A stretch of 64,000 nucleotides of DNA, from assembly GCA_958295785.1 (NCBI GenBank), contig OY282377.1, positions 1,812,394 through 1,876,393 on the forward strand, in the 5' to 3' direction. This document shows, piece after piece, positions 11,185-63,789 of the stretch. A program made the position numbers and the translations under genes. The number at the start of each line of letters is the position of its first letter. Within the stretch, counting starts at the first letter, position 1. The notes beneath the pieces are model-generated. The model ran no database searches. It saw only the letters and a program-made list of their open reading frames with translations, and was not told the origin of the DNA. This DNA comes from an uncultured Latescibacterota bacterium. GTDB lineage: Bacteria > Latescibacterota > UBA2968.

Positions 11185-11598
11185 GCGTTGCTTGTCTAAA
11201 GTGTTTGGTTCTCAAGCGTCGTTTGTTGCCTTCGATGCGTTGGCTACGTCTGTGCCTACGGCGTGCGGCGACTTCCTTTTTTTCAACAGCAAAAAAAGGA
11301 AGCGAGCGGGGTACAACTGCCCTAGCAGTTCAAAAATGCCGCTCTCAAACGCCGAGGGGTGCTCTGCACAGCGCAAATCGCTTTTGTAACAGAACGACAT
11401 GCGTTGGCCTGCAAGGTGGGTTGCCCAATGAACGTGGGTTGCAAGACGGCCTTGCGCGCTGTGCGTGATGGCTTTATCTGATGGCCTTTTGGGATGGCAT
11501 TTTTGCAATGGCTTCTTTGAATGACTGGGTAAGGTCAAGGGGATCAATCACTGGCAACATATCGCATCAGGCCACTAGAAAATCAATTTAGTATTAGA
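11185..11598 (+). mobile_element. MITE-like repeat family, copy A (left end lost)
   Basis: This fills most of the gene-free 11114-11607 interval. It shares long near-identical blocks with copies at 13.6, 37.1, 48.4, 56.1 and 62.4 kb, and ends with the right terminal repeat GAAAATCAATTTAGTATTA. The core has a perfect 12-bp hairpin at 11272-11302 (CTTCCTTTTTTT, loop CAACAGC). This copy carries the extra 28-bp hairpin insert at 11304-11331. The preceding 11114-11184 shows nothing recognisable. No functional gene is evident, although short frames are open. Confidence 0.8.
11306..11331 (+). repeat. 26-bp hairpin insert (inside MITE copy A)
   Basis: GCGGGGTACAACTGC, loop CCTA, GCAGTTC. The arms AACTGC/GCAGTT are perfect. 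The block is absent from MITE copies B, C and H, which read straight from GGAAGC to AAAAATGCC. Related units lie at 24.78, 56.04 and 56.37 kb. Confidence 0.7.
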
Positions 11599-13559: not shown

Positions 13560-13950
13560 TACCAAGTTGTCCGTATCCTGCCTCCCATCAGGGAGGAATG
13601 AGGAACAGACGTTCTGTAGAGATCATGCGTTGTTTGTCTCAAGCGTTTGGCCCTACCGCATCGTTTGTTGCCTTCGATGCGTTGGCTACGCCTGTGCCTA
13701 CGGCGTGCGGCGACCGACTTTTTTTCAACAGCAAAAAAAAGGAAGCAAAAAATGCCGCTCTCATGCGCCGAGGGGCTGGCATAGCGCAAATCGCTTTTGT
13801 AACAGCACGACATGCGCTGGCCTGCCAAGTGGGTTGCATCATGGATGTGGGTTGCGAGACGGCCTTGCGCGCTGTGCGTGATGGTTTTGTCTGATGGTCT
13901 TTTGGGATGGTCTCGTTGCAATGGCTTTTTTGAATGACTGCGGAACGTCA
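13557..13950 (+). mobile_element. MITE-like repeat family, copy B
   Basis: It begins with the degraded left terminal repeat TAATACCAAGTT, followed by GTCCGTATCCTGCCTCCCAT, and continues through the hairpin core (TTTTTTTCAACAGCAAAAAAA). The right end is replaced by a REP-like palindrome at 13949. A 98-codon open frame at 13598-13894 recurs in altered form in other copies; I do not call it a gene. Confidence 0.8.
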
Positions 13951-13967
13951 GGGGCATCGCCCCTATG
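13949..13967. repeat. REP-like palindrome, short copy
   Basis: AGGGGCATCGCCCCT is a hairpin with 6-bp arms (AGGGGC/GCCCCT) around AT(C). It sits at the broken right end of MITE copy B and 10 bp from the end of the next convergent gene, where it could act as a bidirectional transcript end. Confidence 0.5.
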
Positions 13968-37089: not shown

Positions 37090-37136
37090 CGAGAACATCG
37101 CACGTACACGTTCCTGCCTACTCGCCTCTTTCATCT

Positions 37137-37505
37137 TATACCAATTTGATTTTTATTTGTCCGTATCCTGCCTCCCATCAGGGAGGAATGAGGAATGGGG
37201 AATAGACTTACGTAAAGCGTTTGGTTCTGCCTCCTTGTGGGTTGCCTTCGATGCGTTGGCTACGCCTGTGCCTACGGCGTGCGGCGACCTACTTTTTTTC
37301 AACAGCAAAAAAAAGGAGGCAAAAAATGCCGCTCTCAAACGCCGAGAGGCTGGCACAGCGCAAAGCGCTTCGTCGCACACACGACATGCGTTGGCCTGCG
37401 AGGTGGGTTGCAAAATGGATGTGGGTTGCGAGATGGCCTTGCGCGCTGTGCGCGATGGTTTTGTCGGATGGTCTTTTGGGATGGCCTTGTTGCGATTGCT
37501 TTTCG
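37137..37505 (+). mobile_element. MITE-like repeat family, copy C
   Basis: The intact left terminal repeat TTATACCAATTTGATTTTTA is followed by TTTGTCCGTATCCTGCCTCC and the core with TTTTTTTTCAACAGCAAAAA. It lacks the 28-bp hairpin insert. The right end fades near 37505. It fills most of the gene-free 37090-37676 interval. Confidence 0.85.
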
Positions 37506-48349: not shown

Positions 48350-48580
48350 AAGCTGGCACAGCGCAAATCGCTTTTGTAGTAGTACGCCATGCGTTGGCCT
48401 GCAAGGTGGGTTGCAAGATGGCTGTGGGTTGCGAGACGGCCTTGCGCGCTGTGCGTGATGGCATGATCTGATGGTCTTTTGGGATGGCATTTTTGCAATG
48501 GCTTCTCTGAATGATTGGGTAACGTCAAGGGAGATCGCTTGCTGGCAACATATCGCATCACATGAGGCCAAGTGAAAATT
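48350..48580 (+). mobile_element. MITE-like repeat family, copy G (right half)
   Basis: It starts at AGCTGGCACAGCGCAAATCG, runs through GTTGGCCTGCAAGGTGGGTT and GAGACGGCCTTGCGCGCTGT, and ends near GTGAAAATTAAGA, a decayed right terminal repeat. The left half is missing. 48236-48349 between the metzincin gene and this copy shows no feature. Confidence 0.75.
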
Positions 48581-52999: not shown

Positions 53000-54406
53000 A
53001 TGCAGAGGTGGTCTATGCTACGGTGGACAGGGACGCTGATTTTCGGGCTGATGGTTTTGCAGGTCGGGGCAGCCATTGATCCCGCACATCAGGCCACACT
53101 CGCGCAAATGGAAAAATTCAGCGAAGCCTTTGCCGCGGTGGCGTCCGAAGTCAATCCGGGGGTGGTGGCGATAGTCAACAAACGAGATGTAGTCGTCGGG
53201 GTGCGAAGATCGACCGGCGATCCGTTTTTCGACCATTTTTTTCGGGGTCGCCTGCACTATCGGCGAGAACAGCGGGAACAGGGTTTGGGATCCGGTGTCC
53301 TCGTTTCGCGGGATGGCTATATCTTGACCAACGATCACGTCATTGCACGAGCCGATGCCATTGAAGTGGAACTGAGCGACGGCAGAACCTATGACGCAAC
53401 GCTGGTCGGCACGGATCCGCAAAGCGATGTGGCGGTGCTAAAAATTGACGGGCGCGACTTGCCCGCGCTGGAGATGGGCGATTCGGACAAGTTGAAAGTC
53501 GGAACTTGGGTGCTGGCAGTTGGCAATCCTTATGGCTTGCGCCATACCGTGACCTACGGCATTGTGAGCGCGATAGGGCGTGGCAATTTGGATCTGTTGG
53601 ATTACGAGGATTTTATTCAAACCGATGCGGCGATCAACCCGGGCAACAGCGGCGGGGCAATGGTGAATTTGCGCGGGGAATTGGTGGGGATCAACACGGC
53701 AATTTTGTCGCGCAGTGGGGGCAATCAGGGCATTGGCCTGGCCGTGCCGATCAACATGGCGCGCAATATCATGCAGCAAATTATCGCGCGCGGAAGGGTG
53801 AAACGCGGGTATTTGGATGTGGCGGTTCAAGACCTCGGCGAAGAACTTGTCGAAGCCCTGGATCTCAGTGTGAATAAGGGCGCGTTGATCGGGGAAGTGG
53901 GGGCATCTGCCGAGCGATCGGGCCTACAGCCCGGCGATGTGGTCGTGGGGTTAAACAACCGCGAGATCGCCAATGCAGACGAATTTCTCACGCGCATTGC
54001 GCGCACGCCGCCCGGCGCACAGGTGACAGTCGAGGTGATGCGAAATGGACAACGCGAAAAGTTGCGCGTGGCGGTGGGCGATTTTAATGCCCTAAAGGGG
54101 ATGCGAGAGACCGACCTCGGCCTGGATGTTCAAGAGTTGACAGCCGCGATTGCGCGGCAGTTGGGCTATCGGGCGCAAACGGGCCTGCTCATCACCGATG
54201 TGAGATCGGGAAGCCCGGCCGAAGCGGCGGGCCTACAGAGGTGGGACGTAATTCGCCAAATCAATCGCAGGCCCATCCGTTCGATGAAAGAATACGAAGA
54301 CGCACTGGCCGGGGCGAAACCCGGCGACGAAATTGGCCTGATCATTCGCCGAGAAACCCGTTGGAATTACGCCAATTTTTACGCCGTGCTCAAAGTGCCA
54401 AAATGA
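53000..54406 (+). CDS. DegP/HtrA-type serine protease with two PDZ domains
   Basis: 468 residues from ATG 53000; ATG 53015 (MLRWTGTLIFGLMVLQVGAA) is equally possible and has GAGGTGG just upstream. After a signal peptide, the S1C trypsin-like domain shows His113 (TNDHVI), Asp143 (SDVAVLKID) and Ser217 (NPGNSGGAM). Two PDZ domains follow, about 270-365 (EVGASAERSGLQPGDVVVGL) and 370-465 (DVRSGSPAEAAGLQRWDVIR). The layout is that of periplasmic DegP/DegQ quality-control proteases. It is a single-gene unit between a terminator and a convergent sulfatase. Confidence 0.93.
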   Translation: MQRWSMLRWTGTLIFGLMVLQVGAAIDPAHQATLAQMEKFSEAFAAVASEVNPGVVAIVNKRDVVVGVRRSTGDPFFDHFFRGRLHYRREQREQGLGSGVLVSRDGYILTNDHVIARADAIEVELSDGRTYDATLVGTDPQSDVAVLKIDGRDLPALEMGDSDKLKVGTWVLAVGNPYGLRHTVTYGIVSAIGRGNLDLLDYEDFIQTDAAINPGNSGGAMVNLRGELVGINTAILSRSGGNQGIGLAVPINMARNIMQQIIARGRVKRGYLDVAVQDLGEELVEALDLSVNKGALIGEVGASAERSGLQPGDVVVGLNNREIANADEFLTRIARTPPGAQVTVEVMRNGQREKLRVAVGDFNALKGMRETDLGLDVQELTAAIARQLGYRAQTGLLITDVRSGSPAEAAGLQRWDVIRQINRRPIRSMKEYEDALAGAKPGDEIGLIIRRETRWNYANFYAVLKVPK

Positions 54407-54577: not shown

Positions 54578-55990
54578 TTACGCTTCCACATCCTTGGCGT
54601 AACGCTCGTCTTTCACTTTGGCTTGCAGGCGGTGGAGTTCGTCTTTGAGTTCGCGCACAACCTCGGCGTATTCGGGATTGTCGTACACATTGTTGAGTTC
54701 ACGGGGGTCTTTTTGGAGGTCGAAAAGTTCCCATTCGGGTTCTTTGGTATCTTCGACCGACCCTTTTTGCTGGAGGCCATCGGCGTAGTAATAAATGAGT
54801 TTGTACTCGTGGGTGCGAACCCCGTAATGTGCATAAACGCCGTGATGTGCGAGGTGCATCCAATAGCGATAGTACATTGCGGTTTGCCAGCCTTCGGGTG
54901 TTTTGCGGTTGAGCAAGGGACGGATGCTCGATCCCTGGAAGGCGTCGGGAATGTCAATGCCCGCGTAGTCGAGAAAGGTGGGGGCAAAATCGACATTGAG
55001 GATCATGTCGGTATTGACACTGCCGGGCTCGATTTCTTTGGGATAGCGAATGATGAACGGCATGCGAAGCGATTCCTCGTACATAAAACGCTTGTCATAC
55101 CAGCCGTGATCGCCCAAGAAAAAGCCCTGGTCAGACGTGTAAATGACGATGGTGTTGTCGGCGAGACCTTCTGCATCGAGATAGTCCAGCATTCGCCCCA
55201 CATTGTCGTCAACAGAAGCCACACAGCGCAGGTAGTCTTTGATATAACGCTGGTATTTCCATTTCTTGTCTTCTTCGGGCGAGAGGCCCTCAGGGGGCAC
55301 TCCCTTGAGGTCTCTTTCGTTCATGTCGCGGTCAACGCGCATCTTGGCGGCTTTGGCAGCGCTGGCGCGGTTGCTGTAGTCGTCCCAAAAGGTCTCGGGT
55401 TCGGGAATGTCCTCGTCTTCATACATGTGGGCGTGTTTCTCGTCCGGCTCCCAAGCGCGGTGGGGGGCTTTGTGGTGATACATGAGCATAAAGGGGCGGT
55501 TGGTGTCTCGCGCTTTGAGCCAGTCGAGGCACAAATCGGTGATGATGTCCGTGACATAACCCTCATAGACTTTTTCCTCGCCCATTTCTATCATTTTGGG
55601 GTTGTGGTACAAACCCTGCCCGGGCAACACGTTCCAGTAGTCAAAGCCGGTGGGATCGTGAATCCCGCCGTGACCGAGATGCCATTTGCCGATCATAGCG
55701 GTTTGATAGCCCGCTTGCTGGAGCAATTTGGGAAAGGTGAGTTGCCGGCCGTCGAGATGGGTTGCCAGCGTGGTGACGCCGTTGATGTGGTTGTACGTGC
55801 CGCTGAGGATGGTCGCGCGGCTGGGGGCGCAAATCGAGTTGGTGCAAAAGCAGTTGTCAAAGCGCGTGCCTTCATTTGCAATGCGGTCGAGGTTGGGCGT
55901 CTGGTTGATGCGGCTGTTGTAACAACTCATGGCATGCGATGCGTGATCGTCAGACATGATGAAGAGGATGTTGGGGCGATTCGCAGGCAT
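54578..55990 (-). CDS. Sulfatase (formylglycine-dependent, type S1)
   Basis: 470 residues from ATG 55990 with GGAG eight bases upstream. Metal ligands Asp14/Asp15 lie in [14 protein letters not shown]. The formylglycine motif is C-A-P-S-R at 54-58, followed by [31 protein letters not shown] and [20 protein letters not shown] complete the active site. The Cys-type motif requires a formylglycine-generating enzyme, not seen here. The N-terminus lacks a signal peptide. Substrate is probably a sulfated sugar; no close polysaccharide genes pin it down. Confidence 0.93.
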
Positions 55991-56030
55991 AAAAGACTCC
56001 TTGATAGGGTGATTCACGAAGGACACGGTC

Positions 56031-56057
56031 GGGGGACAACTGCGACAGCAGTTCACG
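56031..56057 (+). repeat. Hairpin insert upstream of sulfatase gene
   Basis: GGGGGACAACTGC, loop GACA, GCAGTTCA. It has the same arms and flanks as the inserts in the MITE copies and at the LRR stop, here 45 bp upstream of the sulfatase start and inside its leader. Confidence 0.6.
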
Positions 56058-56099
56058 GACACGAAGGGCTTTAGGAACACCATTTGTAAATGTTAGGTC

Positions 56100-56563
56100 T
56101 AATACTAAATTGATTTTCTGTTGGCCTGATGCGCTATGCGACCCGCAAATGATTCCCTTGACGTTACCCAGTCATTCAAAGAAGCCATCGCAACAAGGCC
56201 ATCCCAAAAGACCATCGGATAAAGCCATCACGCACAGCGCGCAAGGCCGTCTCGCAACCCACGTTCATTGGGCAACCCACCTCGCAGGCCGGCGCATGTC
56301 GTTCTGTTACAAAAGCGATTTGCGCTGTGCCAGCCTCTCGGCGCATGAGAGCGGCATTTTTGAACTGCTAAGGCAGTTGTACCCCGCTCGCTTCCTTTTT
56401 TTTGCTGTGAAAAAAAAGGAAGTCGCCGCACGCATCGAAGGCAACAAACGGCGCTTGAGAACCAAACGCTTGAGACAAGCACCCCATGATCCGTACAGAA
56501 GTTTGTCCCTCATTCCTCCCTGATGGGAGGCAGGATACGGACAAATAAAATCAAATTGGTATA
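56100..56563 (-). mobile_element. MITE-like repeat family, copy D (full length, 464 bp)
   Basis: The only copy with both terminal repeats: TAATACTAAATTGATTTTC at 56100-56118, and at the other end (minus strand) TATACCAATTTGATTTTAT. These are imperfect inverted repeats of about 19 bp. The core hairpin CTTCCTTTTTTTT/AAAAAAAAGGAAG (56391-56422) has 13 perfect pairs. It includes the 28-bp hairpin insert at about 56362-56390. It fills the gap between the sulfatase and sensor genes. Confidence 0.88.
56362..56388 (-). repeat. Hairpin insert (inside MITE copy D)
   Basis: In plus orientation TGAACTGC, loop TAAG, GCAGTTGTACCCCGC. The arms are as in copy A but the loop differs. Confidence 0.7.
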
Positions 56564-56662
56564 ATCTGCGGTTTGTCAACATAGCGCATCGCGCTTGAGA
56601 TAGCAAGCGAGATAAAATAATGTGCGAGCGGCGGCGCGATATGACATTGAAGGAGTGTGTGA

Positions 56663-59600
56663 ATGGGCGGTGAAAATTTGAAAACGCTTTTCAGTTGGAT
56701 GCTCGTTGGGTTGTTTTTGTTGAACAGCGAAATTTTTGCGGGCGAGACCCAGCGCGTGTGGACGGCTTTTCGGCAAGAAGACGGGCTGGCGCACAATGTG
56801 GCGACGGCTGTGGTGCAAACGCCGGATGGGGCCATGTGGTTTGCCACGCTGGGCGGCGTGTCGCGCTATGACGGGCGCGTTTGGAAGACGTATGGCGTTG
56901 AAGATGGATTGCCGGGAACCGCGGTTTTAGATCTGGTTGCCACGCCCGACAACACCGTTTGGGCTGCTTTGGGACGTCGCCTCGACCGCCAACCCCAACG
57001 GGCAATCGCTTATTTTTCCAAAGAAAAATGGGTGGGCATCGATGTGCCAGAGCATTCGGAACAGGTGGGCGTGCGCCAGATTTTGGGGCTGGATAGCAGT
57101 CGCGTGTGTTTGGTGACAGATGACGGCCGCCTGTTGCGCCTTACCGGCGCGCAGTTGGATGTGGTGACATTAGATGGTCGCCCGATTCGAGGCGTGCAAA
57201 GCCTGATGGCCGATGCCGATGGCAAGGTTTGGGTCGCTTATGGCGGGCGAGGAGGGAATGCCTCGTTGGGGCCTGGGTTGGGGCCTGGGGGCGCGGGCCG
57301 CGGCGACCCCCCTGGGCGAGGCAGGCGCGGGGGGTTTCGAGACGCGGACGGTTTAGAAGGTCGCAGAGGCCGCGGCGGTTTCACAGGTGCAGAACGCAGA
57401 CCCCGCAGGCCCGGGTCGGGCGCGTGGCAAGCAGGGGGTATAGACAGTGGGCAGAGCATGGGATTGCTGGATATGGATACGGGCGTTTTGAAAGCCATTG
57501 CAGACATGGACAGTTTGATCGATGTGTCCGTGTTGGCGATGGCGCAAAGTGCGGATGGCGCGGTGTGGTTTGGCACAAACGGGGGCGGACTTAAGCGGTA
57601 CCATCGGGGAAAATGGGACACATTTACAACCGCGCACGGCTTGCCTTCCAACCGCGTGCAGGTGATCCGCTTTGCAAAAGACGGGACCCTGTGGATCGGC
57701 ACGCCGGCAGGCGCGGCGTTTCGAGATGTGCGCGGGCAATGGCATGCATTTGCAGAACGCGAGGGCTTGCCCAACAGCTATGTGGTCGATATCTGTGTTG
57801 CTGCGGATGGCGCGATATGGGTGGGCACGCGCGGCGGCGTTGCGCGGTTGGGGCTTTCGGGATGGCAGCACCATTTGGATTGGCCGGGAATGAATGATCG
57901 CGGCGCGGCCCTGTTCTCCCTAGACGGCGATGGTCAACTCTGGGTTGGCAATGACGCCCTTTACAAATTTGAGCGGGGTGCCTGGCATGAGATGTACGAC
58001 TTAGAGCGCGAAATGCGCGGGCGTCTGATCGATCTGTTTGTCGATGGCAAAGGCGATCTGTGGGTCGCAACCCCGTTTCAGTTGTCGCGCTATGACGGCG
58101 ACTCATGGCGGGTGATAAATCCCGATCATCTCCGGGGATCGCCCGTGCGCGCCGTGTGCCCGGCGAGAGATGGCGGCGTGTGGATCCTCGCGCGCTCGGG
58201 CATTTATCGCTTCGATGGACAGACGTGGACCATCCCCTCTGCCGTGCGCGGCTTGGCGCAGATGGAGGGCAATCCCAATGGCATTTCGATTTGCGAGGCC
58301 AGCGATGGCGCGCTGTGGATAGGGCAGATGGATGGCGTGCTCCATGTGGCGGATGGGCAACCGCGCAAATACACGCTTGACGACGGCATACCCGATGGCC
58401 CGATCAATGTGATTGCCGAAGATATCGGCGGGCGCATCTGGATCAGTTCACCGCTCGAGGGCGTGGCGCATTTTAATGGGCAGCGATGGCGGCGCGTGCC
58501 AGGCGCAGATCAAGCGCAGTTCAACGGCATCAGTCGCATTTTCCCGGCCGACGATGGCAAGGTGTGGCTGGCTTCGTCTGTTGATGGTGCGATTCACACC
58601 GATGGTTTTGCATGGGTGCGCTATACGGTGCAAGAGGGCTTGCCCAGCACCCGGGTTTGGGATGTGGGGCAAGATGCCAAAGGCCATCTCTGGTTTGCAA
58701 CCGCCGAGGGGTTGGGCTATTATCGCCCGGATAGCGATGCGCCCGAAACCCTGCTTTTGGCCCCGCTCACTCAGATCGCGCCGTATCAGATCGCGCTGTT
58801 TGAATTTGCCGGGCAAGATGTGTGGAAGCAAACGCCAGATTGGTCCTTGCAATACGCATGGCGGCTCAACGAGGGCGCGTGGTCGGCTTTTGGGCGCAAC
58901 AATCGCGTTTTGTTGGAAGACCTCGACGCCGGTTCTCACAAACTCGAAGTGCGCGCCATGGATCTCGCTTTTAATGTGGATGCGACTCCGGTTGTGCAGG
59001 TCTTTGAAGTTTTGGCACCCGTGTGGCAGCGTCCATGGTTTGTGGGGTTGAGCGGTTTTTCACTGCTCGCGGTGGTGCTCACCACGGGATATGCGTTTCA
59101 AAAGCACAAACGCTGGCGCGTGGCACAGGCGCGATTGATCCACGAATTGGAGACGGAACTTCAAGAAGCCCACGATATGCAAATGGGCCTGTTGCCCCGA
59201 GACCCCGTGCGCGAAAAGGGCTTTGAGGTGGTGGGCAAATGCCTGCCCGCCAATCACGTCGGCGGCGATTACTTCACGTATTTCTGGCTGGACGACAACC
59301 GGCAAATCCTGGGATTTTGCGCCGCAGATGTGTCGGGCAAAGCCATGCAAGGCGCGGTGAGGGCCATGCAATTGAGCGGCATGTTGCACTATGAGGCGCG
59401 CGCCGAACGCACCCCGATAGATGTGCTGCGGAATTTGAACGCGGTTTTGCAAGAGCAATTCGACGCGATGAGTTTTGTGACCTGTTGTTTGGGAACGCTG
59501 TATTTACAGACCGGGAAGGTCGTTTTGGCCAATGCCGGGCATCCCTATCCCTATCACGTCTCTGCGGCCGGGCATTTGCACATGGTCGAATTGATGTCCG

Positions 59601-59896
59601 TGCCCTTGGGCATGACCTTGCCCCCCGAGGTCAATACCGAACCCAAAGAGACGCATATCGCATTAGACGCTGGCGATATGCTGGTGATCTACAGCGATGG
59701 GGTGACAGATATGCAAAATGCAGCGGGCGATTTTTACGAAGAAGCGCGGTTGGAGGCCCTGCTCAAAAAGCACGCACACGAGGATGCCAGCACCCTGATC
59801 GATGCTGTGATAGACGACTTGCTTCAATTTCGCGCATCGTCAGCACAAACAGATGACGTCACGCTTCTCGTGATCAAAAGGAGGTCTTCCCCATGA
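56663..59896 (+). CDS. Beta-propeller sensor with membrane helix and PP2C/SpoIIE phosphatase output
   Basis: 1077 residues from ATG 56663 with AAGGAG upstream. The signal region ends about residue 25. Two-component-sensor-type propeller repeats fill about 30-700 (DGAMWFATLGGVSRYDGRVW, DGAIWVGTRGGVARL, GRIWISSPLEGVAHFNGQRW). A Gly/Arg/Pro-rich insert of about 65 residues interrupts them at 192-256. A Y_Y_Y domain (about 702-783) and one membrane helix (about 790-812) lead to a cytoplasmic SpoIIE/RsbU phosphatase (about 843-1075) with GGDYF, CAADVSGKAM and VIYSDGVTDMQNA metal ligands. The usual output of such receptors is a kinase or AraC domain; here it is a phosphatase. It probably controls an anti-anti-sigma or similar phosphoprotein. 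The stop overlaps the next oxidoreductase start (ATGA). Confidence 0.92.
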   Translation: MGGENLKTLFSWMLVGLFLLNSEIFAGETQRVWTAFRQEDGLAHNVATAVVQTPDGAMWFATLGGVSRYDGRVWKTYGVEDGLPGTAVLDLVATPDNTVWAALGRRLDRQPQRAIAYFSKEKWVGIDVPEHSEQVGVRQILGLDSSRVCLVTDDGRLLRLTGAQLDVVTLDGRPIRGVQSLMADADGKVWVAYGGRGGNASLGPGLGPGGAGRGDPPGRGRRGGFRDADGLEGRRGRGGFTGAERRPRRPGSGAWQAGGIDSGQSMGLLDMDTGVLKAIADMDSLIDVSVLAMAQSADGAVWFGTNGGGLKRYHRGKWDTFTTAHGLPSNRVQVIRFAKDGTLWIGTPAGAAFRDVRGQWHAFAEREGLPNSYVVDICVAADGAIWVGTRGGVARLGLSGWQHHLDWPGMNDRGAALFSLDGDGQLWVGNDALYKFERGAWHEMYDLEREMRGRLIDLFVDGKGDLWVATPFQLSRYDGDSWRVINPDHLRGSPVRAVCPARDGGVWILARSGIYRFDGQTWTIPSAVRGLAQMEGNPNGISICEASDGALWIGQMDGVLHVADGQPRKYTLDDGIPDGPINVIAEDIGGRIWISSPLEGVAHFNGQRWRRVPGADQAQFNGISRIFPADDGKVWLASSVDGAIHTDGFAWVRYTVQEGLPSTRVWDVGQDAKGHLWFATAEGLGYYRPDSDAPETLLLAPLTQIAPYQIALFEFAGQDVWKQTPDWSLQYAWRLNEGAWSAFGRNNRVLLEDLDAGSHKLEVRAMDLAFNVDATPVVQVFEVLAPVWQRPWFVGLSGFSLLAVVLTTGYAFQKHKRWRVAQARLIHELETELQEAHDMQMGLLPRDPVREKGFEVVGKCLPANHVGGDYFTYFWLDDNRQILGFCAADVSGKAMQGAVRAMQLSGMLHYEARAERTPIDVLRNLNAVLQEQFDAMSFVTCCLGTLYLQTGKVVLANAGHPYPYHVSAAGHLHMVELMSVPLGMTLPPEVNTEPKETHIALDAGDMLVIYSDGVTDMQNAAGDFYEEARLEALLKKHAHEDASTLIDAVIDDLLQFRASSAQTDDVTLLVIKRRSSP

Positions 59897-60906
59897 AAAA
59901 CGCGATAGCCGTCGTTGGCACGGGCTATATTGGCGGCGAACACATCAAAGCCATTGCGGCCAATCCCCGTGCCCATTTGCGAACAATCTGCACCACGCCG
60001 CGCAGCGAACGCATTGCAAAAGACCTGCAAGCGACCTACGCTGCAGATCGCATATCGACCGATTACGACCGCGTCTTGTGCGATCCGGAAGTCGATATCG
60101 TGTATCTTTGCACCCCCAACGCGCAACACGCGGATCAGGCCATTGCCGCTTTGGGCGCGGGCAAGCACGTTTTTGTTGAAAAACCCTTGGCCGTGACGGT
60201 TGAAGACTGTGAAAAAATCGTCCATGCCGCCAGACGGTCAGAACAACGGGTCATGGTCGGCCACGGCGCGCGATTTGGCAGCATCTTTGAAACCATCCAC
60301 CACCTCGTCCACAGCGGCACCTTGGGCGATGCCTGTTTTGTGGAAGGCGATTACATCCACGACCTCAAACCCTTCTTGCCGTTGCCCGGGCACGACTGGT
60401 GGATGCACCCGGAGCGAGAAGGCCAACTGCCCATCATCGGCGGCGCGTGCCATCCCATAGACCTCATGCGCTGGATCGCCGGCGAGATTGTGGAAGTCAG
60501 CGCGTATGGCGCGAACAGAAACATCCCCGAAGCCCCGTGGTGCGACACGGTGATCGCGGGCTTAAAATTTGAATCCGGCGCCTTGGGCAAATGCACGGTA
60601 TCTTGCGGCGCGGCAATCCCCTACACCCTCAACTTCAGCTACCACGGCAGCAAAGGCTCGGTTCACAATAACAAAGTCTTCATCGGCGGCATCCCCCACG
60701 TCGAGGGCTGGTCTGACCTGCCCGTTGAAATCCGCGCAGAAGACCACGCCTGCCCGCAGGAACTCGACCACTTTCTCGCCTGCATTGAACGCGCGGAAAA
60801 ACCGCGCATTGACGCGGCGGATGCGGCCCGCTCTGTGGCGGTGTGTTGCGCCATAGTCGAATCCATTGAAACCCATCGCCCGGCAACTGTCTTTCTAAAT
60901 TTTTGA
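59893..60906 (+). CDS. Gfo/Idh/MocA-family oxidoreductase
   Basis: 337 residues from ATG 59893 with AGGAGG upstream, sharing ATGA with the sensor gene. The Rossmann motif is IAVVGTGYIGGEHIKAI. The EKPLAVTVED motif and the C-terminal GHDWWMHPEREGQLPIIGGA, then CHPIDLMRWIAGEIVEVSAY, contain the catalytic-region His. Translational coupling to a sensor phosphatase is unusual for this family. It is followed closely by a GNAT gene and a second Gfo/Idh gene, suggesting one operon of sugar modification. Confidence 0.93.
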   Translation: MKNAIAVVGTGYIGGEHIKAIAANPRAHLRTICTTPRSERIAKDLQATYAADRISTDYDRVLCDPEVDIVYLCTPNAQHADQAIAALGAGKHVFVEKPLAVTVEDCEKIVHAARRSEQRVMVGHGARFGSIFETIHHLVHSGTLGDACFVEGDYIHDLKPFLPLPGHDWWMHPEREGQLPIIGGACHPIDLMRWIAGEIVEVSAYGANRNIPEAPWCDTVIAGLKFESGALGKCTVSCGAAIPYTLNFSYHGSKGSVHNNKVFIGGIPHVEGWSDLPVEIRAEDHACPQELDHFLACIERAEKPRIDAADAARSVAVCCAIVESIETHRPATVFLNF

Positions 60907-60909
60907 GAT

Positions 60910-61407
60910 ATGAACACCGCGCCCAATTCCACGCGCAGCATTCGCATGCACCGCTCGCTCGGGCAACCGCTTCCCCAATACGCCGAACCCGAGGGCTTTA
61001 TCATTCGCGCGCTTCGGCCCGGCGAAGAAGAAGCGTGGGTTCGCATGAAAAACGCGGCCTTTGGCGAAGAAGGCGGCAGGGCGTGGACCATTGAGGATTT
61101 TCACGCCACCTTCACCCGCGAGCCATGTTGCGATTACAAGCGCGTATTTGTCGCGCTGAAAGGCGATCACATGGTCGCCACGGCCAGCGCGTGGGAAGCC
61201 CATTACGGCGGCCCTGTCGGCCTCATCCACTGGGTTGGCACGCATCCCAAATACCGCGGGCATGGACTCGGCTATGCCCTCACCCTCCGCGCGCTTGAAG
61301 AACTCTCAGCACGCGGCTATGCAGACGCCTATCTCAACACCTCCCTGGCGCGCGAACCCGCGGTTCGCCTGTACAAACGCTTGGGGTTTCGCATTTTGGA
61401 GCCTTAA
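60910..61407 (+). CDS. GNAT-family N-acetyltransferase
   Basis: 165 residues from ATG 60910, three bases after the previous stop. The acetyl-CoA pyrophosphate-binding motif is GTHPKYRGHGLGYALTLRAL, with a strand VGLIHWVG before it and ARE-PAVRLYKRLGFRILEP at the end, all as in GNAT enzymes. The N-terminal 28 residues are extra and basic. The acceptor substrate is unknown; its place between two Gfo/Idh genes hints at an amino sugar. It is translated together with both neighbours. Confidence 0.88.
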   Translation: MNTAPNSTRSIRMHRSLGQPLPQYAEPEGFIIRALRPGEEEAWVRMKNAAFGEEGGRAWTIEDFHATFTREPCCDYKRVFVALKGDHMVATASAWEAHYGGPVGLIHWVGTHPKYRGHGLGYALTLRALEELSARGYADAYLNTSLAREPAVRLYKRLGFRILEP

Positions 61408-62400
61408 ATGAACGCCCCCATTCGCATTTTGCTCGTCGGTTGCGGGCGCATGGCCTTAAGCCATGCCAGCGGTTTGAAACCCCTGTCAGAACTCGGCATC
61501 ATTGTCGCGGGCGTCGATCCGTCTAAAGACGCGCGCAAAAAGCTGGAAACCGAATACGGCGTATCCGCCACCTATCCCGCGTTGGACGCCGCGCTCGCCC
61601 ATGTGGAAGCGGATGCCGCGATCATTGCCGCGCCCAATTTTCTGCACAAAAATTACACCATCGCCTGCTTGAAAAAGGGATTGCACACCCTCATCGAAAA
61701 GCCCATGGCCCTCACCATGGCCGATGTCGATGCCATGATCGCCACGGCCGAAGCCCAGGACAAATTGCTCATGAGCGGGCAGAGTCAGCGTTTTTCCCCG
61801 GGCATTCGCCAAGTTAAAAAAATGCTCGAAGAACGGGCCGTGGGAAAAATCCGCCACGTCATCCACCGCAGGCTCGGCTCCGGGCGCGGCGGAGACGCAC
61901 AGAGTTGGTTCGCGCGTCAGGAATTATCGGGCGGGATTTTGCCCGGCATTGGCGTCCACTCGCTCGACGTGCTCTTGTGGTGGCTCGATGAAAAAGTTGT
62001 CTCTGTCTCGGCTATCGTGCAAAATATCGACCCGCACCCGCAAATCGACATCGAAGACGAAGTCTCACTCATCGCCACAACAGAAAGCCATGCCATCCTC
62101 AACTGCGCCCTTTCCTTTCACCACCCTGGCGGCACGGATTGGCTGGTGATGGGCGACAAGGGCATCCTCCATCTCAACGGCACACAAGGTCCGCTCTTGC
62201 TCAACGGCAAAGAACAAGCCATTCCCCAAATCGTTTCCTTGGATGGCGAACCCAATATTCACGCCGAATTTCTCGCGGCCATTCGCAACAACCGCCCCCT
62301 CGCGCAAGCCTCTGCCCAAGATGTTCGCAAAACCATGGCCCTCATCTTTGCGGCGATGGAGTCGGGGAGAACCGGAAAGACTACGCTGGTGCCTGGGTGA
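61408..62400 (+). CDS. Gfo/Idh/MocA-family oxidoreductase
   Basis: 330 residues from ATG 61408, immediately after the GNAT stop. The Rossmann motif is IRILLVGCGRMALSHASGL. EKPMALTMADVDAMIATAEA carries the conserved Lys. The C-terminal domain has GKIRHVIHRRLGSGRGGDAQ and GGILPGIGVHSLDVLLWWLD with the catalytic-region His. It is a distinct subfamily from the gene at 59893 (low identity beyond motifs). Last gene of the sensor operon; a MITE copy begins about 15 bp downstream. Confidence 0.93.
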   Translation: MNAPIRILLVGCGRMALSHASGLKPLSELGIIVAGVDPSKDARKKLETEYGVSATYPALDAALAHVEADAAIIAAPNFLHKNYTIACLKKGLHTLIEKPMALTMADVDAMIATAEAQDKLLMSGQSQRFSPGIRQVKKMLEERAVGKIRHVIHRRLGSGRGGDAQSWFARQELSGGILPGIGVHSLDVLLWWLDEKVVSVSAIVQNIDPHPQIDIEDEVSLIATTESHAILNCALSFHHPGGTDWLVMGDKGILHLNGTQGPLLLNGKEQAIPQIVSLDGEPNIHAEFLAAIRNNRPLAQASAQDVRKTMALIFAAMESGRTGKTTLVPG

Positions 62401-62412
62401 GGTCGGTGGCCT

Positions 62413-62833
62413 AGGGAGGAATGAGGAACAAGCGTTCCGTAGAGAGCATGCGTTGCTCGTCTCAAGCGTTTGGTTCTGCCTCCATGTGGGTTGCCTTTAA
62501 TGCGTTGGCTACGCCTGTGCCTACGGCGTGCGGCGACCGACTTTTTTTCAACAGCAAAAAAAGGAAGCAAAAAATGCCGCTCTCAAACGCCGAGGGGTGC
62601 TCTGCACAGCGCAAATCGCTTCGTTGCACACACGACATGCGCCGGCCTGCGAAGAGAGTTGCAAGATGGCTGTGGGTTGCGAGACGGCCTTGCGCGCTGT
62701 GCGTGATGGCATGATCTGATGGTCTTTTGGGATGGCATTTTTGCAATGGTTTCTCTGAATGACGGCGTAAGGTCAAGGGAATCATTTGCGGGTCGCATAT
62801 CGCATCACATCAGGCCGACAGAAAATCAATTTA
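62413..62833 (+). mobile_element. MITE-like repeat family, copy H, interrupted by an IS5-like element
   Basis: The left end is lost (starts TAGGGAGGAATGAGGAACAA); the core hairpin TTTTTTTCAACAGCAAAAAA is present without the 28-bp insert. The right terminal repeat reads GAAAATCAATTTA and then stops where the IS5-like element begins with GAAGCCCTAACA, so the IS landed in this TTA. Confidence 0.85.
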
Positions 62834-63747
62834 GAAGCCCTAACAAAAAGCGTTGCCATGGATTTGTGAGAGGCCGATTTTCTTCTCAGCCCAACCCTTA
62901 CAACGTCCATGCCCGGCATCTGCAACCGGGCGAGGAGGGACAAATGACCAAACCCCTCGTGAGCGATGCACTCTGGGAAAAGGTCCACCCCCTTTTGCCG
63001 GTTCCCAAGCCGAGACGATTCCGCTTTCCCGGACGTAAGCGCATTGATGACCGCAAGGCGTTGACCGGCATTCTATTCGTCCTGAAGAGCGGCATCCCAT
63101 GGGATCAGTTGCCCCAAGAGATGGGGTGTGGTTCAGGGATGACCTGCTGGCGTCGTCTGAAGGCATGGCATGACGCCGGCGTGTGGGAGCGGCTTCATCA
63201 TCTGCTGTTGTCCAAACTGCGAGCGGCCGATGGCCTGGCCGGGTCTCGTGCCTGCGTGGACAGCGCCTGCCTGCGTGCGGTAGGCGCTGGGGGAAAACCC
63301 GGCCCCAATCCCACAGACCGCCGCAAGCCCGGGCGTAAGCATCATGGGATCACCGATGCCAACGGGGTGCCTTTGGCCGCGATTGTGCCCGGGGCGCACC
63401 GGCCAGATGTGACGCAATGGTTGCCATGGGTGGACGCCGTGCCTGCGGTCAGAGGCAAACGCGGTCGTCCGCGTCGCAGACCCCAACGGCTGTATGCGGC
63501 GCGTGCCTATGACTCGGAGGCGTGCCGGAAGGCCCTGCGTGCATGCCACATCTGGCCGGTGATCGCCCGGCGGGGTACAGAGCATGGCAGCGGGTTGGGC
63601 GTGTACCGGTGGGTCGTTGAGCGGACGCTGGCCTGGCTCCGGCAGTTTGGCAGCCTGCGGGTGCGCGACGAACGCAGAGCGGACCTCCATGAGGCGTTCC
63701 TCTCCATCGGCTGTTCACTCCTCTGTTTCAGATGCTTGATTTCTTTC
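62834..63747 (+). mobile_element. IS5-like element, copy 3 (right end lost)
   Basis: The left end GAAGCCCTAACAAAAAGCGT is intact. The right end stops at TTGATTTCTTT and is replaced by TTAGGACTTACGCAA, the end of an IS701-like element. Lacking one terminal repeat it cannot move itself, but its transposase could act in trans. Confidence 0.87.
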
Positions 63748-63789
63748 TTAGGACTTACGCAATCCCCATTGGAATATGAGGTGCTTTGA
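62944..63789 (+). CDS. IS5-family transposase, open frame, chimeric C-terminus
   Basis: 281 residues from ATG 62944 with GAGGAGGGA upstream. It begins MTKPLVSDALWEKVHPLLPV and is uninterrupted through the DDE set: Asp in ACVDSACL, Asp in AARAYDSEACR, Glu in YRWVVERTLAWLRQF. The native end LISLC is replaced by LISFLGLTQSPLEYEVL read from the inserted IS701-like end. All catalytic residues are present, so it is the likely source of activity for the two damaged copies and the two 112-bp MITEs. It also serves as the reference for the frameshifts in copies 1 and 2. Confidence 0.9.
   Translation: MTKPLVSDALWEKVHPLLPVPKPRRFRFPGRKRIDDRKALTGILFVLKSGIPWDQLPQEMGCGSGMTCWRRLKAWHDAGVWERLHHLLLSKLRAADGLAGSRACVDSACLRAVGAGGKPGPNPTDRRKPGRKHHGITDANGVPLAAIVPGAHRPDVTQWLPWVDAVPAVRGKRGRPRRRPQRLYAARAYDSEACRKALRACHIWPVIARRGTEHGSGLGVYRWVVERTLAWLRQFGSLRVRDERRADLHEAFLSIGCSLLCFRCLISFLGLTQSPLEYEVL

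Follow-up and report, generated by a model that had tools for sequence, protein, structure and literature searches.

Two probably unrelated units in a Latescibacterota genome

We analysed 64,000 nucleotides of contig OY282377.1 (assembly GCA_958295785.1, positions 1,812,394 to 1,876,393; hereafter the window) from an uncultured Latescibacterota bacterium, where the gene of a membrane receptor with a SpoIIE-type phosphatase domain overlaps a Gfo/Idh-GNAT-Gfo/Idh gene trio. Very probably these are two unrelated units, a receptor-phosphatase and an independent oxidoreductase operon, joined by a rearrangement that left the overlap as its scar, and the output of the phosphatase would be directed in trans at a STAS protein. 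The source genome assembles into one contig of 5.66 Mb and is 99.3% complete. The four open reading frames (ORFs) are co-directional on one strand, and the receptor gene and the first oxidoreductase gene share an ATGA at 59893-59896. Together with their conserved neighbours, they are as follows.

53000-54406, + strand: DegP/HtrA-type protease (Pfam); neighbour shared by the genus and its outgroup genus G014
54578-56083, - strand: sulfatase, divergent from the receptor gene (Pfam); neighbour shared by the genus and G014
56663-59896, + strand: receptor of 1077 residues with propeller, Ig-like domain, transmembrane helix and SpoIIE-type PPM phosphatase (ORF, Pfam, ortholog alignment, structure model)
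59893-60906, + strand: Gfo/Idh/MocA oxidoreductase 1, 337 residues (Pfam GFO_IDH_MocA); orthologs at separate loci in congeners
60910-61407, + strand: GNAT acetyltransferase, 165 residues (Pfam Acetyltransf_1)
61408-62400, + strand: Gfo/Idh/MocA oxidoreductase 2, 330 residues (Pfam GFO_IDH_MocA)

Gene order in relatives

Each of the ten congeners carries a receptor ortholog, so the receptor is not a chance observation; orthologs also occur in two further genera of the same family and in a single genus of f2, a related (sister) family. The ortholog-bearing relatives are labelled Candidatus Latescibacterota in public records, with a few Gemmatimonadota or unclassified. Directly after the receptor gene, a DsbD-like thiol:disulfide interchange gene is present in 10/10 congeners and in G014, and the DegP/HtrA and divergent sulfatase genes lie upstream wherever the contig extends that far. 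The Gfo/Idh-GNAT-Gfo/Idh trio forms a separate locus beside a different sulfatase gene (sulfatase B) in each of the ten congeners. In the closed congener genome, G008, the receptor gene lies at 0.617 Mb and the trio at 3.515 Mb, 2.9 Mb apart; the other nine are drafts with the two loci on different contigs, and there the local contexts were read directly. The receptor-Gfo/Idh adjacency is kept in none of the ten congeners and in no outgroup examined. In family f2, the receptor gene is flanked by those for adenylate kinase and FolD/PurL, in G013 it is followed by a DUF3604-type gene, and linkage to a sulfatase is confined to the genus and G014. All three trio genes are intact in the source genome, with about 80% identity to the orthologs. 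The trees of both oxidoreductases were too short to resolve; in the receptor tree, the source genome branches outside the other sampled congeners (99/98), with G014 outside the genus; this makes the DsbD order the ancestral state and the Gfo/Idh order a derived one.

The junction lies in a ribosome-binding site

The junction was located by base-level comparison and by a probe of 600 bases centred on it and searched against the congeners.

59879-59896, + strand: rearrangement junction, including the Shine-Dalgarno sequence of oxidoreductase 1 (base-level comparison, junction probe)

Probe bases 1 to 289-294 match the receptor locus and those from base 284-307 onward match the Gfo/Idh locus, the two halves mapping to separate places in every congener. 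The matches, spanning probe bases 1-293 and 287-600, overlap in AGGAGGTC (59879-59886), the Shine-Dalgarno site of oxidoreductase 1, which in the source genome now forms the C-terminal Arg-Arg codons of the receptor. In the congeners the receptor gene ends with ATTAAGAGGCGGTAG or similar and the Gfo/Idh leader is CAGGAGGTCTTCCGATGAACGCG or similar; the source genome reads ATCAAAAGGAGGTCTTCCCCATGAAAAACGCG, so that the former receptor stop codon is lost and the TGA of the ATGA serves as the new one. Because the probe splits at the Gfo/Idh ribosome-binding site and the receptor stop is lost, we interpret the ATGA overlap as a rearrangement scar. The near-match at the break points, AGGCGGT at the receptor end versus AGGAGGT in the Gfo/Idh leader, suggests microhomology joining. 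Breakage and joining there would have placed the trio directly behind the receptor gene in the source lineage and would at the same time have removed the native stop codon of the receptor gene together with the DsbD-like gene behind it.

The displaced DsbD gene is now found as a single copy at 0.899 Mb in the source genome (86% identity). For sulfatase B, the best match in that genome is a distant one (38%). The congeners' next gene after the trio is retained about 14 kb downstream, beyond insertion sequence (IS) and repeat insertions. A simple reciprocal exchange was rejected, as the DsbD gene at 0.899 Mb is not beside sulfatase B, itself without a close match; more than one event is therefore needed. 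The inverted repeats that flank the four genes were likewise rejected as the cause of the junction, since the break at 59879-59886 falls inside the unit they flank.

The receptor-oxidoreductase link is thus best read as a recent accident of gene order in the source genome and not as a selected coupling; limited to one genome and missing from the ten closest sampled relatives, it gives no pointer to a self-regulating sugar circuit. An earlier sequence-only reading had described the four genes, their order and strand, the ATGA coupling and a propeller receptor with SpoIIE-type phosphatase output, all of which are borne out by the ORFs and Pfam matches. It had also suggested a possible circuit that drives its own modifying enzymes, against which a neighbourhood not conserved in relatives would count. 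The receptor-phosphatase part of this interpretation stands and the link to sugar oxidoreductase genes does not, because the loci are separate in 10/10 congeners and the proposed circuit rests on a junction unique to the source genome. An ATGA overlap is often taken as a sign of functional coupling; the present case, with its junction within the ribosome-binding site of the downstream gene, shows that it can also arise as a recent scar.

Structure of the receptor

The receptor is composed of the following segments.

56663-56731, + strand: N-terminal signal peptide, residues 1-23 (inspection of the sequence; helix 3-21 in the model)
56744-58732, + strand: Reg_prop beta-propeller region, residues 28-690 (Pfam PF07494, E = 6e-44; profile matches 4a2l, 3v9f and 3ott; strands in the model)
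57248-57448, + strand: Gly/Arg-rich low-complexity insert in the propeller, residues 196-262 (differs between members of the genus; modelled as disordered)
58745-59011, + strand: Ig/Y_Y_Y-like domain, residues 695-783 (sub-threshold Pfam PF07495; separate beta domain in the model)
59033-59188, + strand: predicted single transmembrane helix into a cytoplasmic coiled-coil linker, residues 791-842 (one continuous helix in the model)
59207-59881, + strand: SpoIIE-type PPM phosphatase domain (Pfam, alignments, fold match; invariant D869, D889, D1012, D1064 and D1065)

The AlphaFold2 model of the receptor (mean predicted local distance difference test [pLDDT] 77.5; predicted template-modelling score [pTM] 0.50) consists of the propeller region, the beta domain (695-783), the helix (791-842) and the phosphatase (849-1073). 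In a profile search with the orthologs, the ectodomain matches BT4663-type receptors (4a2l at 5.5e-45; also 3v9f and 3ott), and the best fold match of the model is the periplasmic domain of BT4663, a heparin/heparan-sulphate sensor. The Y_Y_Y match has an E value of 0.26 and 11.6 bits against a cut-off of 26.6, and that of one ortholog (1e-4) is likewise under the Pfam cut-off, so the domain is called Y_Y_Y-like here. RGRGEPGGRGRRGGFRGADGP-like units make up the Gly/Arg-rich loop, which is inserted at a single propeller position, differs in length between congeners and is short or missing in the sister family.

The helical linker that precedes the phosphatase domain is conserved across orthologs, which share the motif ELExELQEAHxMQMGLLP; in the model its pLDDT is low at 809-822. 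The SpoIIE match (PF07228) covers residues 883-1073 with an E value of 1.3e-42, and the aspartates of the PPM metal site do not vary in 12 orthologs or in 18 relatives with identities as low as 27%. The ortholog profile also matches the phosphatases RssB and Rv1364c, and the best fold match of the C-terminal part of the model is the RssB phosphatase domain (template-modelling score 0.77-0.82 on the target). Control of the PPM phosphatase through a coiled coil has been demonstrated for RsbU, and such control by diverse sensors is proposed to extend to the family as a whole (PMC12143880). In the receptor, the periplasmic propeller and Ig-like domain may sense a ligand or an assembly state, and the signal would pass through one membrane helix and the coiled coil to a dimeric cytoplasmic phosphatase.

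Candidate partners of the phosphatase

Five SpoIIE, five STAS and eight HATPase_c_2 domains were matched by Pfam in the source genome. None of these STAS and HATPase_c_2 matches lies in the window, in agreement with the earlier remark that no anti-anti-sigma or anti-sigma gene is nearby; the genome-wide check for STAS substrates that went with that remark had a positive outcome, with the five STAS domains, RsbW-like kinases and one complete STAS/receiver-SpoIIE/HATPase_c_2 cluster elsewhere (C1:3.484-3.490 Mb). Stand-alone STAS proteins with Ser at the expected position are encoded outside the window, as is an RsbW-like kinase. Among the candidate partners are STAS proteins at C1:3484129, 3829545, 2569854 and 372617 and RsbW-like kinases at L105:9845-10264 and L107:7048-7494. 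With such partners in the genome, a partner-switching output in trans is plausible, and the phosphatase would most likely dephosphorylate a STAS (anti-anti-sigma-like) protein encoded at another locus. An orphan STAS protein is found in every sampled receptor-bearing genome of the family and sister family; because it also occurs in receptor-less genomes, it is a candidate partner only.

The complete cluster (L105:8091-13550; G000 C1:3484090-3489549) also has genes for a periplasmic binding protein and a HAMP histidine kinase, and this partner-switching module is apparently fed by a two-component system.

Alternative explanations

Several points weigh against the joining of two unrelated units around a receptor-phosphatase. 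The pTM of 0.50 leaves the domain arrangement in the model uncertain, the phosphatase has no assigned substrate, and nine of the ten congeners are drafts with the two loci on different contigs. The junction was read in one genome of its species, which leaves an assembly error there a small probability. A false joining of the receptor and Gfo/Idh loci would explain why the junction occurs in one genome only, and the source genome is repeat-rich; however, the break falls at a gene-level microhomology that spares both genes and not at repeats, the DsbD gene is present as a single copy elsewhere, and the genome is one nearly complete contig, all of which make an artefact very unlikely. Most improbable of all is an evolved operon in which a glycan-responsive partner-switching receptor controls its own Gfo/Idh-GNAT-Gfo/Idh enzymes. 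The ATGA overlap, the co-directional genes, the STAS and RsbW-like proteins in the genome and the resemblance of the ectodomain to BT4663 would suit it, but the linkage is seen in 0/10 congeners and in no outgroup examined, each unit has its own conserved context, and in family f2 the receptor gene has adenylate kinase and FolD/PurL as its neighbours; the reading is refuted for a circuit that is ancestral or conserved.

The joining of two unrelated units is compatible with a coupling that is genome-specific but now functional, which would add a functional consequence to it: the oxidoreductase genes may have lost their own promoter and may be transcribed and translated from the receptor message. 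We regard this as possible, though on the unlikely side. Similarity to the ancestral Gfo/Idh leader begins only at the Shine-Dalgarno sequence, so the former upstream region is gone, and the three genes are intact at about 80% identity to their orthologs; on the other hand, an internal promoter is possible, and co-expression in cis does not make the oxidoreductases targets of the phosphatase. Slightly more doubtful is the fuller claim that a chance rearrangement at a ribosome-binding site made a working operon in which receptor and sugar oxidoreductases are co-transcribed and co-translated; if true, the new operon would be a natural case of a Shine-Dalgarno sequence in a coding end coupling two genes in one step.

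Because the ancestral neighbours of the receptor gene encode HtrA/DegP and a DsbD-like protein, the receptor may respond to the folding of periplasmic proteins or to the redox state and not to a glycan. The DegP-sulfatase-receptor-DsbD order in congeners and G014, where the contig allows it to be seen, agrees with such an envelope-status sensor; as neighbours, DegP and DsbD are equally compatible with an envelope signal and with a glycan signal. The order is nevertheless not found in family f2 and in G013, where the DUF3604-type gene follows, and adjacency by itself is weak evidence; we consider this sensor role unlikely, if far less so than an assembly artefact.

Relation to known receptors

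The Bacteroides hybrid two-component systems BT4663, BT3049 and BT4673 (PDB 4a2l/4a2m, 3v9f and 3ott/3va6) have a double propeller plus Y_Y_Y ectodomain. They share with the receptor the Reg_prop propeller and Ig-like ectodomain and are its best PDB matches by profile and by fold; whereas their outputs are histidine kinase, receiver and AraC-type domains, that of the receptor is a PPM phosphatase, and unlike theirs its gene shows no linkage to a polysaccharide-utilization gene cluster. With the partner-switching PPM phosphatases of the RsbU/RsbP/RssB type (PDB 3es2, 3eq2 and 3ke6 [Rv1364c]) the receptor has in common the PPM domain, its catalytic aspartates and the preceding helical coiled-coil linker. 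Their sensors, however, are cytoplasmic PAS, GAF or receiver domains instead of a periplasmic propeller across the membrane, and the receptor gene has no adjacent STAS partner as those systems do. A similar propeller and Ig-like ectodomain occurs in ligand-binding sensor domain-containing diguanylate cyclases and in an adenylate/guanylate cyclase protein of Treponema saccharophilum; these matches span much of the receptor ectodomain and linker, at only 22-24% identity, and their output is a cyclic nucleotide in place of phosphatase activity.

Propeller ectodomains of similar kind are already known joined to histidine kinases and cyclases. The receptor, found in several Latescibacterota lineages, adds an uncharacterised propeller-to-phosphatase architecture to this modular set. 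A literature search for propeller-SpoIIE fusions found nothing relevant, nor do propellers figure in a 2025 survey of bacterial PP2C domain architectures. If the phosphatase acts on a STAS protein, a glycan-sensor-like ectodomain would be linked to partner switching, of which the search found no report.

Other features of the window and related loci

An Rfam scan of the window gave four transfer RNAs and nothing else. Sulfatases are numerous in the source genome, with 110 first-look candidates; given this abundance and its restriction to the genus and G014, the receptor-sulfatase linkage was set aside as a pointer to function. In G014, a distant receptor-phosphatase paralog (L127:3664-8504) has a sulfatase gene 117 bases downstream, which is co-directional, unlike the divergent one by the main receptor. 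A transposase ORF and two copies of a dispersed repeat flank the genes described above.

56102-56564, + strand: copy of a 0.5-kb dispersed, high-copy repeat that precedes the receptor gene (repeat searches)
62413-62845, - strand: inverted copy of this repeat, downstream of the second Gfo/Idh gene (repeat searches)
62719-63789, + strand: IS4/IS5-family transposase ORF (Pfam); start likely near 62944 (translation inspected)

The repeat is about 0.47-0.5 kb long, with 40 scored copies at 78-89% identity and 370 first-look candidates in the source genome; in 512 kb of congener DNA, the sole match was one of 34 bases. Its ends are inverted (ATACCAAATTGATTTT ... AAAATCAAATTGGTAT), which suggests an element like a miniature inverted-repeat transposable element. 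The receptor gene is preceded by one copy at a distance of about 100 bases, and further copies in the window are at 11189-11598, 13567-13958, 37136-37501 and 48352-48560.

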